From positions 1-64,000 of the forward strand of contig WHTS01000023.1 of the NCBI GenBank assembly GCA_009377585.1: DNA of 64,000 nt, written 5' to 3'. This document shows positions 11,887 through 31,578 of this stretch, piece after piece; position 1 is the first letter of the stretch; the number at the start of each line of letters is the position of its first letter. Both the position numbers and the translations under genes were made by a program. The notes beneath the pieces were generated by a model, which saw only the letters and a list, made by a program, of their open reading frames with translations, did not search any database and was not told where the DNA came from. The stretch comes from Betaproteobacteria bacterium (GTDB taxonomy: Bacteria > Pseudomonadota > Gammaproteobacteria > Burkholderiales > WYBJ01).

Positions 11887-14247
11887 ATGCTGGAGATCGA
11901 GCTCGACGGCCGCAAACTGGAAGTTCCCGAGGGCAGCACCATCATGGATGTCGCCAATCGGGAGGGGATCTACATCCCCCACTTCTGCTATCACCGCAAG
12001 CTTTCCATTGCCGCCAACTGCCGCATGTGCCTGGTGCAGGTGGAGAAGGCACCCAAGCCCTTGCCGGCGTGCGCCACACCGGTCACGAACGGCATGAAGG
12101 TGTGGACGCATTCGGATACCGCGGTCGACGCCCAGAAGGGCGTGATGGAATTTTTGCTCATCAACCATCCGCTCGACTGTCCGATCTGCGACCAGGGCGG
12201 CGAATGCCAGCTGCAGGATCTCGCAGTGGGTTACGGCGCCAGCGCTTCGCGCTACGACGAGCCGAAGCGCGTGGTCTCGAACAAGAACCTCGGTCCGTTG
12301 ATATCGACCGACATGACACGCTGCATTCACTGCACGCGTTGCGTGCGCTTCGGTCAGGAAATCGCCGGCATCATGGAGCTCGGCATGATCGGGCGCGGCG
12401 AGCATGCCGAGATCATCACCTTCGTAGGCCGAGCGGTCGACTCGGAGCTGTCGGGCAACGTGATCGATCTTTGTCCGGTCGGGGCGCTCACGTCCAAGCC
12501 GTTTCGCTACTCGGCGCGCACCTGGGAGCTCATGCGGCGTTCGAGCGTCAGTCCGCACGACGGGTTGGGCTCGAATCTCACCGTGCAGGTGAAGCAGAAC
12601 CGGGTCATGCGCGTGCTGCCGCGCGAGAACGAAGCCGTCAATGAATGCTGGCTGTCGGACAAGGACCGCTTCTCGTACGAAGGACTCAACTCGGAGCAGC
12701 GCCTGGTGCGGCCGATGATCCGTGAATCGTCCGGTTGGCGCGAAGTCGATTGGCCCACGGCGCTGGCCTTCGCGGTGGAGGGCCTCAAACGGGTGCGCGA
12801 GGCGCACGGACCGAGCGCCATCGGCGCGCTGGCCACGGCGCATTCCACCTTCGAGGAGCTATACCTGCTGCAGAAGCTCATGCGTGGCATCGGCAGCGGC
12901 AATGTCGATCACCGGTTGCGGCAGTCGGACTTCAGTCGCGACGGCACGCAAGCCGGTGCGCCGTGGCTGGGGACCGCGATTGCAGACATTCCGGCGCTCG
13001 ACCGCGTGCTGGTCGTCGGCTCGACGTTGCGTCGCGATCATCCGTTGCTCGCGCATCGATTGCGGCAGGCGGCGAAGAAGGTGCTGCAGCTGAACCTCGT
13101 CAACCCGGTAGACGACGAGCTGTTGCTGCGTGTGGCCAATCGCCTGATCGTGGCGCCCAGCGGGCTCGCCGGAGCGCTGGCCGAGATCCTGCAAGCCCTC
13201 GGCGGGTTGAAGGGCGTTTCGGTGCCCCAGCAAGCTGGCGTCGAAGCTTCGGAAAGCGCCCGGCGCATCGCCGAGAGCCTGGCTTCGGGCAGCAACGTCG
13301 CCCTCTACCTCGGCAACCTCGCCCAGCACCATCCCGACGCGAGCCTGCTGCACGCGCTGGCGCAACGCATCGCCGATGTCGCGGGGGCGCGCTTCGGCTT
13401 TCTCGGCGAGGCGGCCAACAGCGTAGGCGGGGTGCTTGCGGGCGCGGTGCCGTATGGGGGCACGGTCGCAGGGCTCGATGCGCGCGCGATGCTCGAGGCG
13501 CCGCGTCATGCGTACCTGTTGCTGAATGCCGAGCCCGAGCTCGACTGTCACGACCCGGCGGCGGCCATGGCCGCGATGCGCGCCGCCGACTTCGTCATTG
13601 CGCTCAGCCCTTATCAGCACGGAGCAGTCGACTACGCGCGTGTCATGCTGCCGATCGGTCCCTTCACCGAGACCTCGGGCACCTTCGTCAACACCGAAGG
13701 CCGGCCGCAAAGCTTCCGCGGCGTGGTGAATCCGCTGGCCGAAACGCGTCCCGGCTGGAAGGTGTTGCGCGTGCTGGGCACGATGCTCGGCGTCGACGGA
13801 TTTGGTTACACCTCGAGCGAGCAGGTGCGCGACGAAGCGCTGGCGCAGGACGAGCTTGCCGCGCGGCTGGATAATCACCTGCGCGAGGAGCGCATCGACG
13901 CACCGCGCATGCAAGCGCCGGATCTCGAACGCATCGGCGAGGTGGCAGCCTATCACGCCGACGCCATCGTGCGCCGTTCGCCGCCCCTGTTGGCGACGCA
14001 ATACGGCCAGCCTCCGGTTGCCAGCATGAGCAGCGAGACGGCGGCGCAATTGGGCTTGCGCGCAGGCGGCGGTGTGCTTTTGCGGCAAGGGCAAGGCGAG
14101 GCGACGCTGCCGGTGGCGCTGGACGAGCGCGTTCCCCCGAACTGCGTGCGCGTTCCGGCCGGTCACCCGGCAACCGCAGCGCTGGGATCGATGTTCGGGG
14201 CGATCGAGGCGCAGCCGGTGGCGCTGGACGAGCGCAAGGTCGGCTAA
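11887..14247 (+). CDS. nuoG: NADH-quinone oxidoreductase subunit G
   Basis: Large electron-transfer subunit, 786 residues. The N-terminal ferredoxin-like domain supplies N1b ligands (IPHFCYHRK, ANCRMCLVQ, ACATPV). Next come the His-coordinated N5 region HPLDCPICDQGGECQLQD and the N4 ligands RCIHCTRCVRFGQ with DLCPVGAL. The molybdopterin-oxidoreductase-like domain follows. The Cys cluster that would bind N7 is absent: the equivalent stretch reads SSVSPHDGLGSN, so this NuoG is the N7-lacking type. The stop abuts the nuoH ATG. Confidence 0.96.
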   Translation: MLEIELDGRKLEVPEGSTIMDVANREGIYIPHFCYHRKLSIAANCRMCLVQVEKAPKPLPACATPVTNGMKVWTHSDTAVDAQKGVMEFLLINHPLDCPICDQGGECQLQDLAVGYGASASRYDEPKRVVSNKNLGPLISTDMTRCIHCTRCVRFGQEIAGIMELGMIGRGEHAEIITFVGRAVDSELSGNVIDLCPVGALTSKPFRYSARTWELMRRSSVSPHDGLGSNLTVQVKQNRVMRVLPRENEAVNECWLSDKDRFSYEGLNSEQRLVRPMIRESSGWREVDWPTALAFAVEGLKRVREAHGPSAIGALATAHSTFEELYLLQKLMRGIGSGNVDHRLRQSDFSRDGTQAGAPWLGTAIADIPALDRVLVVGSTLRRDHPLLAHRLRQAAKKVLQLNLVNPVDDELLLRVANRLIVAPSGLAGALAEILQALGGLKGVSVPQQAGVEASESARRIAESLASGSNVALYLGNLAQHHPDASLLHALAQRIADVAGARFGFLGEAANSVGGVLAGAVPYGGTVAGLDARAMLEAPRHAYLLLNAEPELDCHDPAAAMAAMRAADFVIALSPYQHGAVDYARVMLPIGPFTETSGTFVNTEGRPQSFRGVVNPLAETRPGWKVLRVLGTMLGVDGFGYTSSEQVRDEALAQDELAARLDNHLREERIDAPRMQAPDLERIGEVAAYHADAIVRRSPPLLATQYGQPPVASMSSETAAQLGLRAGGGVLLRQGQGEATLPVALDERVPPNCVRVPAGHPATAALGSMFGAIEAQPVALDERKVG

Positions 14248-29195: not shown

Positions 29196-29302
29196 GAGTG
29201 AAGTTTAGCAGGCGAGTGTCATCATCCGGCGCGAGGCGCTCGCCCGGGTCATACGCGAGACGGGGCCTATCGATGGCGCATGCGCCAGCCACGGCGAGGA
29301 CG

Positions 29303-29830
29303 ATGCAACTCACGAATCGGCACGGTTATCTGGCGGGCTTCCTGGTGTGCGCAGGATTGATCGGGTTCGCCCTTTATCTGCAGTACGTCGTGGGCGAAGA
29401 CCCTTGCCCGCTGTGCCTGCTGCAGCGAATCGCATTCATGGGTCTGGGCGTGGTATTCCTCGTCGCCGCGCTACACGATCCGCGTCGCACGGCGGCGGCC
29501 GTCTACGGCGTGCTGCTGCTGCTGTTTGCGGCCGCGGGCGCGGCGCTCGCCGGGCGACACGTATGGCTGCAAAGCTTGCCCAAGAACATGGTCCCGGAAT
29601 GCGGACCGGGGCTCGACTACATCCTGTCGCGCTTCCCGTTGCAAAAGGCGATCGACATGGTGCTGCGCGGATCGGGCGAATGCGCGGAAAAAGGCTGGAC
29701 CTTTCTCGGCCTCAGCATTGCCGGCTGGTCGCTCGTCTGGTTCGTGCTGCTCGCGCTGCTCGCGGTCGTGGTGACGATGCGGGCCACGCGCGACCGTGGT
29801 CGTGCGGGACACGCGCAAATGCGCGCCTGA
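29303..29830 (+). CDS. dsbB: Disulfide bond formation protein DsbB
   Basis: Inner-membrane quinone reductase that reoxidises DsbA. The 175-residue protein has four transmembrane helices. The first periplasmic loop carries the redox pair EDPCPLCLLQR; the second holds the other pair in PECGPGLD and SGECAEKGW. ATG 29303 gives the family length; ATG 29273 and an upstream frame to 29198 are also open. A FrnE/DsbA-family gene lies 1.1 kb downstream on the other strand. Confidence 0.93.
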   Translation: MQLTNRHGYLAGFLVCAGLIGFALYLQYVVGEDPCPLCLLQRIAFMGLGVVFLVAALHDPRRTAAAVYGVLLLLFAAAGAALAGRHVWLQSLPKNMVPECGPGLDYILSRFPLQKAIDMVLRGSGECAEKGWTFLGLSIAGWSLVWFVLLALLAVVVTMRATRDRGRAGHAQMRA

Positions 29831-29933: not shown

Positions 29934-30143
29934 TCAGGCTGGCACATCGGGGACCAGTCGTTTCTCGAGCACCGAGATCTGGTCTTTGAGCAGGAGCTTT
30001 TGTTTCTTCAGGCGCCGCAGCTCGAGTTCGTCTTGTACGGGGCTGTCGGCGAGGCGGGAGATCATCTTGTCGAGACTGCGATGTACGGAGTGCAATTCGG
30101 CGAGTTTGGCGCGCGTAGCTTCCAAATCCTCTTCGATCAGCAT
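29934..30143 (-). CDS. DUF465 (YdcH) family small protein
   Basis: A 69-residue, almost wholly helical protein starting MLIEEDLEATRAKLAELHSV and containing HRSLDKMISRLADS and LRRLKKQKLLLKDQI, which is the DUF465/YdcH pattern of a short coiled-coil hairpin. The biochemical function of the family is not established. A GGAGGCAGC Shine-Dalgarno immediately precedes the ATG at 30143; the frame is open to 30203 but without homology. Confidence 0.85.
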   Translation of the reverse strand: MLIEEDLEATRAKLAELHSVHRSLDKMISRLADSPVQDELELRRLKKQKLLLKDQISVLEKRLVPDVPA

Positions 30144-30203
30144 GCTGCCTCCTCTCGAAAGATGTTGCGCGCTTATGGTAGAAGATGCCCGCCAAAACTT
30201 CAA

Positions 30204-30910: not shown

Positions 30911-31555
30911 TCAGGCTAGCGACTGCTGCATCGCTTCGAGCAGCATGCTCGGCTCGTGCGCGCCCGAAACGGCGACGCGTCGATTGAAGATGAAGAATGG
31001 AACGCCGCCGATTCCCGCCTGCCGTGCTTCGAGATCGGCTGACAGCACCGCTTGCCTGTCCTCGTCGGAGGCGAGATAAGCGGCCACCGCATCGGGCTCG
31101 AATCCCGCGCGCGCGCCGAGCGCGGCCAGCTGGGACAAGTCCGTCAACACGGTGCCTTCCTGGAAGTAACCACGGAACAGGCTCTCGGCCATTGCATCTT
31201 CCCGCTCGTGTCGGGCGGCATGGTGCATGAGGCGATGCGCGTTGACGGTGTTGGGCTGCACGGTGATCGCGTCGAAGGCGAAGTCGATGCCGACCTCCTT
31301 GCCCACCGCGGCGACGCGGGCATAATTGCGGGCGCCGCCGGGACCGAACTTGCGTTCGATGTAGGTCTTGCGGGCTATTCCCTCCGCTGGGAGATCCGGA
31401 TTGAGCTGGAACGGCAGCCAGCGCACGGCCGGCTCGGGTTCATCGGGCAACTTGCTGCGGAATAGCGCCAAGGCCGATTCCAGGCGGCGTTTGCCGATGA
31501 AACACCAGGGTCAAACCACGTCGGATACGATCTCGACGACGAGTCGGTTGTCCAT
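30911..31555 (-). CDS. FrnE-like DsbA-family oxidoreductase, apparent selenoprotein (UPWC)
   Basis: Reading through one in-frame TGA gives 214 residues, the normal FrnE length. The start MDNRLVVEIVSDVV is followed by TGA at codon 15, then PWCFIGKRRLESALALF. Homologues have C-P-W-C here, so TGA replaces exactly the first active-site Cys. The rest is intact: WLPFQLNPDLP, NTVNAHRLMHHA, EDAMAESLFRGYF and the cis-Pro loop GGVPFFIFNRRVAVSGAH. AAGGAG lies six bases before ATG 31555, so the reading starts upstream of the TGA by design. A 7-bp hairpin follows the TGA. Conventional callers would start at TTG 31471 and lose the active site. A nonsense-mutated pseudogene is the alternative. Confidence 0.8.
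31486..31506 (-). promoter_or_regulatory. Candidate bacterial SECIS hairpin
   Basis: Starting four bases after the TGA, GGTGTTT pairs with AAACGCC (six Watson-Crick pairs and one G-U) around the loop CATCGGC. Position directly 3' of the UGA is where bacterial SECIS elements bind SelB. The loop is about 11 bases from the UGA, slightly closer than in E. coli fdhF, and an alternative CGGC/GCCG stem is possible, so the exact fold is uncertain. Confidence 0.45.
31511..31513 (-). other. In-frame TGA, proposed selenocysteine codon
   Basis: Codon 15 of the frnE-like frame. It occupies the position of the nucleophilic Cys in the CxxC motif and is followed by Pro-Trp-Cys. No other stop or frameshift interrupts the frame. 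Confidence 0.75.
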
Positions 31556-31578
31556 GCGGCGCTCCTTCACAATTGACG

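Follow-up and report, generated by a model that had tools for sequence, protein, structure and literature searches.

The analyzed stretch of DNA, hereafter the window, comprises 64,000 nt of a contig (WHTS01000023.1) from a betaproteobacterial genome assembly (GCA_009377585.1; 6.76 Mb, 242 contigs, 99.4% complete). Its minus strand carries a predicted gene for a FrnE/DsbA-family protein of 214 amino acids, whose reading frame starts from an ATG at position 31555 and is interrupted by a single internal stop codon, the TGA at codon 15 (Table 1). Codons for Pro-Trp-Cys follow directly, and the frame is open from there down to the terminal TGA (30913-30911). In FrnE homologues, the first Cys of the CPWC motif is found at the position of the internal TGA. 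Translation of the minus-strand frame bears out an original prediction, which had described an AAGGAG Shine-Dalgarno motif and an ATG (both present, at a spacing of six bases), the lone TGA before PWC and an intact remainder of the frame. It had also anticipated that automated annotation would start at a TTG at 31471, and a mechanical ORF caller indeed returns exactly and only this TTG ORF (30911-31471, 186 aa), in which the active site is lost.

Table 1. Features of the FrnE/DsbA-family gene and of the RNA element within its coding sequence (positions in the window).
Feature	Positions	Strand	Basis
Predicted FrnE/DsbA-family selenoprotein CDS, 214 aa, UPWC active site, terminal TGA	30911..31555	-	sequence, Pfam match, AlphaFold2 model, PDB matches
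Shine-Dalgarno AAGGAG, six bases 5' of ATG 31555	31562..31567	-	sequence
In-frame TGA, codon 15, predicted to be read as selenocysteine	31511..31513	-	conservation across loci
Cys18, putative resolving cysteine of UPWC; sole Cys in the protein	31502..31504	-	sequence; invariant in 44-row alignment
Pro186, presumed cis-Pro loop (GVPF) of the thioredoxin fold	30998..31000	-	invariant in 44-row alignment
Codons 37-45, synonymously constrained in the Sec but not in the Cys forms	31421..31447	-	lowest of 197 nine-codon windows
Helix A, 5' strand AUCGG, codons 20-21	31494..31498	-	pairing counts
Helix A, 3' strand CCGAU, codons 37-38	31442..31446	-	RNAalifold and pairing counts
Hairpin D, AGCCGGC / CGUGC / GCUGGCU, codons 41-47	31416..31434	-	pairing, compensatory changes at two pairs, -10.6 kcal/mol
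Possible outer helix, 5' strand GGU, 4 nt after UGA	31504..31506	-	RNAalifold on 70 sequences; weak, as only one of the three pairs varies
Possible outer helix, 3' strand, third base of codon 47 and codon 48	31413..31415	-	RNAalifold on 70 sequences

A DsbB gene (PF02600, 163.5 bits) is located about 1 kb away on the plus strand (29198-29830), with a DUF465 gene (29934-30203, minus strand) in between. The neighboring genes for DsbB, DUF465 and an RF-1-domain (ArfB-like) protein are kept in all four genomes of the genus (that of the window and three others) but in none of six regions from a second family; no functional link can therefore be drawn from the gene order, and the neighborhood was discarded as a clue to function.

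The read-through frame matches the Pfam family DSBA (PF01323) along its entire length (residues 6-210, 121 bits). An AlphaFold2 model of the sequence, lettered with Cys at position 15, reached a pLDDT of 97.0, and both the best PDB sequence match (128 bits) and a Foldseek fold match (TM about 0.9, 36-37% identity) are to FrnE of Deinococcus radiodurans. The protein thus combines a DSBA domain covering its whole length, a CPWC-type motif and the FrnE fold, the features of the FrnE/DsbA-like class. Pro186, within the sequence GVPF, is invariant among the 44 aligned proteins and is taken by us to have the cis-Pro role. No signal peptide was seen in the protein. D. radiodurans FrnE, a cytoplasmic disulfide reductase (PDB 5cnw, 5coh), exhibits a CP(W/F)C motif, whereas UPWC would be present here; it uses Cys and has a C-terminal CXXXXC, while the window protein lacks both Cys15 and the tail.

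The original prediction placed the TGA at the nucleophilic Cys, suggested an alignment of homologues as a check and named a wrong base call as the observation that would overturn it. In a first set of 125 FrnE loci, the aligned codon is TGA in 28 and TGC or TGT in 97 (89 of them distinct), and nothing else occurs there. This set excludes six weak or partial matches (L048-L050, L052-L054), among them L049 (31% identity), in which a TGA occurs at a different place, and it includes the best 80 of 516 loci from a scan of named genomes, 14 of which carry the TGA; these 14 are labelled as Betaproteobacteria or Burkholderiales MAGs. The TGA is found at the same codon in relatives with 53-89% identity. 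Within the genus it is present in four of four genomes (that of the window and three at 89, 79, and 71% identity), and the same search of 60 related genomes detected it in one genome of a second family (57% identity). In that family, 66 of 74 genomes contain the gene and all 66 have a TGA copy, two of them next to a stop-free second copy; among 59 loci of the family fetched later, 57 exhibit TGA at codon 15 and the other two are second copies with TGC. Among 399 genomes of the order, 138 yielded a match (E up to 1e-20), 15 with TGA. A sample of 398 genomes of the phylum gave 165 matches and, among the matches listed, only the genome of the window shows the TGA. The UGA is thus aligned with the Cys of homologues and conserved in more than one species. 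A sequencing error (the codon really being TGC or TGT) or a recent pseudogene, for which the draft state of the genome in 242 contigs might speak, is therefore already refuted by the same TGA in dozens of separately assembled genomes, and with an otherwise intact frame and purifying selection on the codons after the TGA, its probability is negligible.

When residue 15 was masked and a tree of 117 proteins computed, a single branch (SH-aLRT 86) separated the 28 selenocysteine (Sec) forms from the others, and one change between Cys and Sec is placed on the tree. The Cys row nearest to the Sec forms, a second copy, comes from a genome within the genus and lies on a long branch. Three genomes (loci L051 in G002, L272 in G789, and L273 in G792) contain, in addition to the Sec copy, a FrnE of the Cys type that shares about 51-54% identity with the window protein.

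Comparisons with relatives indicate purifying selection on the codons after the TGA. Between the window gene and its nearest relative, codons 16-32 show eight synonymous and no nonsynonymous differences, and codons 1-14 show three synonymous and one nonsynonymous difference. Against five more distant relatives, dN is lower than dS in all five at codons 16-32 and at codons 33-69. For codons 1-14 the same holds in four, while both values are equal in one (L079), which makes codons 1-14 alone weaker evidence than the rest. Sec and Cys forms share conserved residues 7-14 as well as the PWC, and it is the ATG at 31555 that has a good ribosome site. Translation from the TTG at 31471, downstream of the TGA, into a shortened protein devoid of the active site is what the mechanical caller proposes; given these observations, such a start is very improbable. 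Codon usage before the UGA is also biased: codon 14, which directly precedes it (codons 14-15, 31511-31516), is GTT in 21 of 28 Sec forms vs. 11 of 89 Cys homologues; at codon 12, GAC is used in 27 of 28 vs. 58 of 89. This bias may reflect the UGA context or be part of the RNA element described below.

The original prediction had proposed to look for the selenium genes, and selA, selB, tRNASec (UCA anticodon) and selD are all present in the genome. SelA was identified by PF03841 (517.7 bits) and its gene is located directly before selB (442.8 bits), followed on the same contig (L024:10161-15158, G000:C118) by a gene for a thioredoxin-reductase-like pyridine nucleotide-disulphide oxidoreductase and the gene for tRNASec (75 bits). 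SelD (412.5 bits; L055, G000:C2:81361-82290) is encoded on a different contig and is itself a selenoprotein, with an in-frame TGA in the sequence SHGGG-U-GCK, which is presumably read by the same SelB. A second tRNASec match (L017, G000:C94:1972-2057) scored 48.3 bits, just above the gathering score, and was rejected as it is a tRNASer(UGA) according to ARAGORN; exceeding the Rfam gathering cut-off for tRNASec is thus by itself no proof of selC. Formate dehydrogenase was considered as a further Sec user: TIGR01553 gave no match over its cut-off in the genome, and the matches of TIGR01591 are without internal stop. In the window, weak matches to the formate dehydrogenase alpha subunit (12547-13839, plus strand) of up to 110 bits, under the cut-off, fall into a stop-free frame of 1,234 residues, which probably encodes another molybdopterin enzyme. 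The genome's own system of SelA, SelB, SelD and tRNASec would supply Sec and insert it at codon 15. Together with the TGA and Cys codons of the aligned homologues, its presence supports the selenoprotein reading of the original prediction.

In the order sample, selB exceeds its cut-off in 102 of the 399 genomes, namely in all 15 TGA carriers, in 33 of 123 Cys-only carriers and in 54 of 261 genomes without a match; the difference between TGA and Cys-only carriers has a Fisher p of 2.5e-8, uncorrected for kinship. SelD contains a TGA in all 15 TGA carriers; five selB-positive Cys carriers served as controls, of which two have SelD with TGA, two have SelD without it, and one has no SelD (E up to 1e-50). 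Selenium genes do not by themselves imply Sec use in FrnE, as they occur in the 33 Cys-only carriers too. UGA is also used as terminator, ending the window gene as well as 12 further Sec loci among the 28, and decoding of the internal UGA must therefore depend on its context. Suppression of the UGA as Trp or Cys would likewise yield a full-length protein through read-through; against it stand this use of UGA as terminator, the co-occurrence of selB with the TGA in 15 of 15 genomes and the location of the UGA at the redox Cys, a site at which related enzymes are known to carry Sec instead of Cys. Suppression of this kind is accordingly most unlikely.

In the bacterial SECIS (bSECIS) model, a small loop with an early G is located 16-37 nt after the UGA. 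The published description gives as limits a loop of 3-9 nt, a stem of 4-16 bp, G followed by G or U early in the loop and an energy of at most -7.5, and it also notes that some bacterial selenoprotein genes deviate from the model (PMC13188914). At 16-37 nt after the FrnE UGA, some loci have a hairpin, but there is no enrichment over codon shuffles or Cys homologues. A hairpin of -3 kcal/mol or better was found in the usual range in 14 of 28 Sec forms vs. 55 of 89 Cys forms, and codon-shuffled controls performed equally well, with a mean fraction of 0.53. Nor does the RNA directly behind the UGA exceed codon shuffles in stability: for stretches of 12 and of 16 codons, the mean z is -0.23 in both cases in the 28 Sec forms, compared to -0.04 and -0.21, respectively, in Cys loci (the first 45 of 89). 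SelD of the same genome does possess a hairpin that fits the published model (CGCCAGC-GUU-GCUG-A-GCG), with the loop 20 nt after the UGA. This hairpin is nearly invariant in 17 SelD genes with TGA (that of the window genome and 16 others), two of which have GGU in the loop.

A distinct signal was identified further downstream. At codons 37-45, only 313 of 2,441 same-residue codon comparisons differ among the Sec forms (0.13, vs. a window median of 0.46; 378 pairs of 28 sequences), as compared to 1,961 of 3,467 (0.57) among Cys homologues (1,017 pairs at 50-95% identity). With 70 Sec sequences this stretch is again the lowest of 187 windows (0.126 vs. a median of 0.47). Asp at codon 38, for example, is encoded by GAT in 27 of 27 Sec forms vs. 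19 of 50 Cys forms. RNAalifold placed two helices in the constrained region, helix A and hairpin D. All five pairs of helix A are formed in 28 of 28 Sec vs. 12 of 89 Cys sequences (four Cys rows are gapped there), and hairpin D is formed with at most one mismatch in its seven pairs in 28 of 28 vs. 10 of 89. Both occur together in 28 of 28 Sec vs. 1 of 89 Cys forms, counts in which kinship is not fully corrected, with the Sec forms constituting one clade and the helices picked after viewing many windows. Compared to codon-preserving shuffles, codons 20-38 have a mean z of -1.51 (SE 0.14) in the 28 Sec forms vs. -0.33 (0.21) in the first 40 of the 89 Cys forms, and the hairpin D stretch alone has -0.79 (0.14) vs. 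-0.32 (0.15). In the Sec genes, three control windows ranged between -0.48 and 0.39. In single-sequence folding, both helix A and hairpin D have probabilities below 0.5 in 3 of 28 sequences.

The helices were also scored in further TGA loci, which belong to the family that had contributed 10 of the first 28, making this a test on relatives and not on new lineages. From 57 loci, 14 repeats of the first set or of each other (over 480 nt) were dropped. Among the 42 scored, 41 have all pairs of helix A, 41 have hairpin D with no more than one mismatch, and 40 have both; L220, scored afterwards, carries both helices as well, giving 41 of 43. One pair of helix A is broken in L252. The most divergent sequence, L270 (53% identity), has two outer mismatches in hairpin D while both cores are kept, and it exhibits double changes from C-G to U-A in helix A and from G-C to A-U in hairpin D, in addition to a change from G-U to A-U. 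The same G-C to A-U double change in hairpin D is found separately in L058. In the 68 distinct rows of the 70 sequences (without L220), 96.4% of all cells pair (99.7% for helix A) and 13 cells are changed on both sides, as compared to a mean of 2.4 in shuffles, none of 500 of which reached 13; slid registers pair only 10-52% of cells. Less remarkable is the count of further pair types, which 48 of 500 shuffles reach; as with the counts above, kinship is not fully corrected in these tests. For the pair between the third base of codon 41 and the first base of codon 47, G-C occurs in 53, A-U in 10 and G-U in 3 of the 68 rows, with 2 unpaired, which corresponds to eight state changes on the tree of 70. 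The pairing of helix A and hairpin D is thus supported, though much of the element is invariant and compensatory changes are accordingly confined to few pairs and few independent events. Two helices inside helix A, B and C, score well on covariation (helix C, for example, reads CAGUUC-GCU-GAACUG vs. CUGCUC-GCC-GAGCAG), but were rejected as a general element as they fit only 89% and 79% of cells, respectively.

Hairpin D is similar to a canonical bSECIS in its stem length, loop size and energy and in having a G within the first two positions of the loop, with U next to it. Apart from the spacing, it agrees with the published limits, with a loop of 5 nt, a stem of 7 bp, the sequence C-G-U and -10.6 kcal/mol. 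Unlike the canonical loop, that of hairpin D lies 83 nt after the UGA (80 nt in lineages with a codon deletion) and is preceded by a helix enclosing 47 nt. By eye only, the core of the SelD hairpin, GCC(A/G)GC...GCUG, resembles that of hairpin D; it differs in the position of its loop, in the loop sequence (GUU, or GGU in 2 of 17) and in a bulged purine. A covariance model built from the 17 SelD hairpins found no link: among 73 FrnE loci (28 Sec, 45 Cys) it gave 30 scattered matches up to E 10, none of them on hairpin D.

These features suggest a model in which codons 20-38 form a side arm closed by helix A, with hairpin D directly after it. Without the 47 nt enclosed by helix A, the loop would be situated about 36 nt after the UGA, or 26 nt if the helix strands are also omitted. 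Hairpin D would then constitute the apical part of a SECIS, held at working distance through looping-out, and the weak outer helix would turn the arrangement into a three-way junction. The looped-out stretch covers the codons for most of the protein's first helix (residues 16-35 in the AlphaFold2 model), a part that would be free to evolve while the signal stays fixed. It can alternatively be argued, with regard to the RNA part only, that codons 37-45 and the helices serve mRNA stability or another overlapping signal and that a weak, nearer hairpin is the true SECIS. The location of hairpin D outside the 16-37 nt model, its failure to be matched by the SelD covariance model and the usual-range hairpins of some sequences are in line with such a role. 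However, Cys homologues from the same family show almost none of the constraint and pairing, the usual-range hairpins are no better than codon shuffles, and helix A would bring hairpin D within the usual distance. We therefore regard this alternative as a possible but less favored explanation and consider it somewhat probable that the RNA element is what SelB reads. The further proposition, that it represents a new class of SECIS with a SelB-binding hairpin about 83 nt after the UGA, 47 nt looped out by a conserved helix and possibly a three-way junction, appears to us evenly poised. For the locus as a whole, a FrnE protein with Sec15, produced via the organism's own sel system and with the RNA element as the likeliest context signal, is with high confidence the best explanation.

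The encoded enzyme is predicted to be a cytosolic thiol oxidoreductase of 214 residues in which Sec15 takes the place of the attacking cysteine. Its selenolate would attack disulfides, and the bond would subsequently be resolved by Cys18. In D. radiodurans FrnE, the C-terminal CXXXXC pair is thought to regenerate the active site (PMC8945050). No such CX4C pair was found in the window protein, which ends at residue 214 and has Cys18 as its sole Cys; something else, thioredoxin or glutathione, would therefore have to recycle the enzyme.

The original prediction mentioned neither the published COG2761/DsbA-like Sec proteins nor the downstream RNA element. COG2761 is the FrnE group. Sec-containing "DsbA-like, COG2761" proteins with a UXXC motif were described in 2005 from nine Sargasso Sea sequences (PMC1088965), a 2016 count comprised 45 "DsbA-like protein" members in 41 organisms (PMC5029168), and a review of 2026 lists a "DsbA-like protein form 1" with PF01323 (PMC13188914). 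The Sargasso proteins, compared here by description only, belong to the same Pfam family and likewise have Sec first in UxxC; they derive from marine shotgun sequences with SECIS-like stem-loops downstream of the TGA (PMC1088965), whereas the present case is a clade of betaproteobacteria whose sel genes have been identified and whose RNA element lies far from the UGA. In the accessible, largely open-access literature on FrnE, DsbA-like and COG2761 selenoproteins, on SelB and SECIS distance and on DsbA selenoproteins of betaproteobacteria, neither the protein of this clade nor a SECIS at such a distance was found described. The Sec-FrnE protein consequently belongs to a family that is already known, while the RNA element, should it act as proposed, looks new.

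If the RNA element is a SECIS, the 16-37 nt rule concerns the folded and not the linear distance between UGA and loop, and searches relying on a linear SECIS rule would miss such genes. As SelD of the same genomes has the usual element, one SelB could be tested on both. Kept across a clade of betaproteobacteria and overlooked by a mechanical gene caller, the protein is in itself a well-supported addition to a known, little-studied selenoprotein family.
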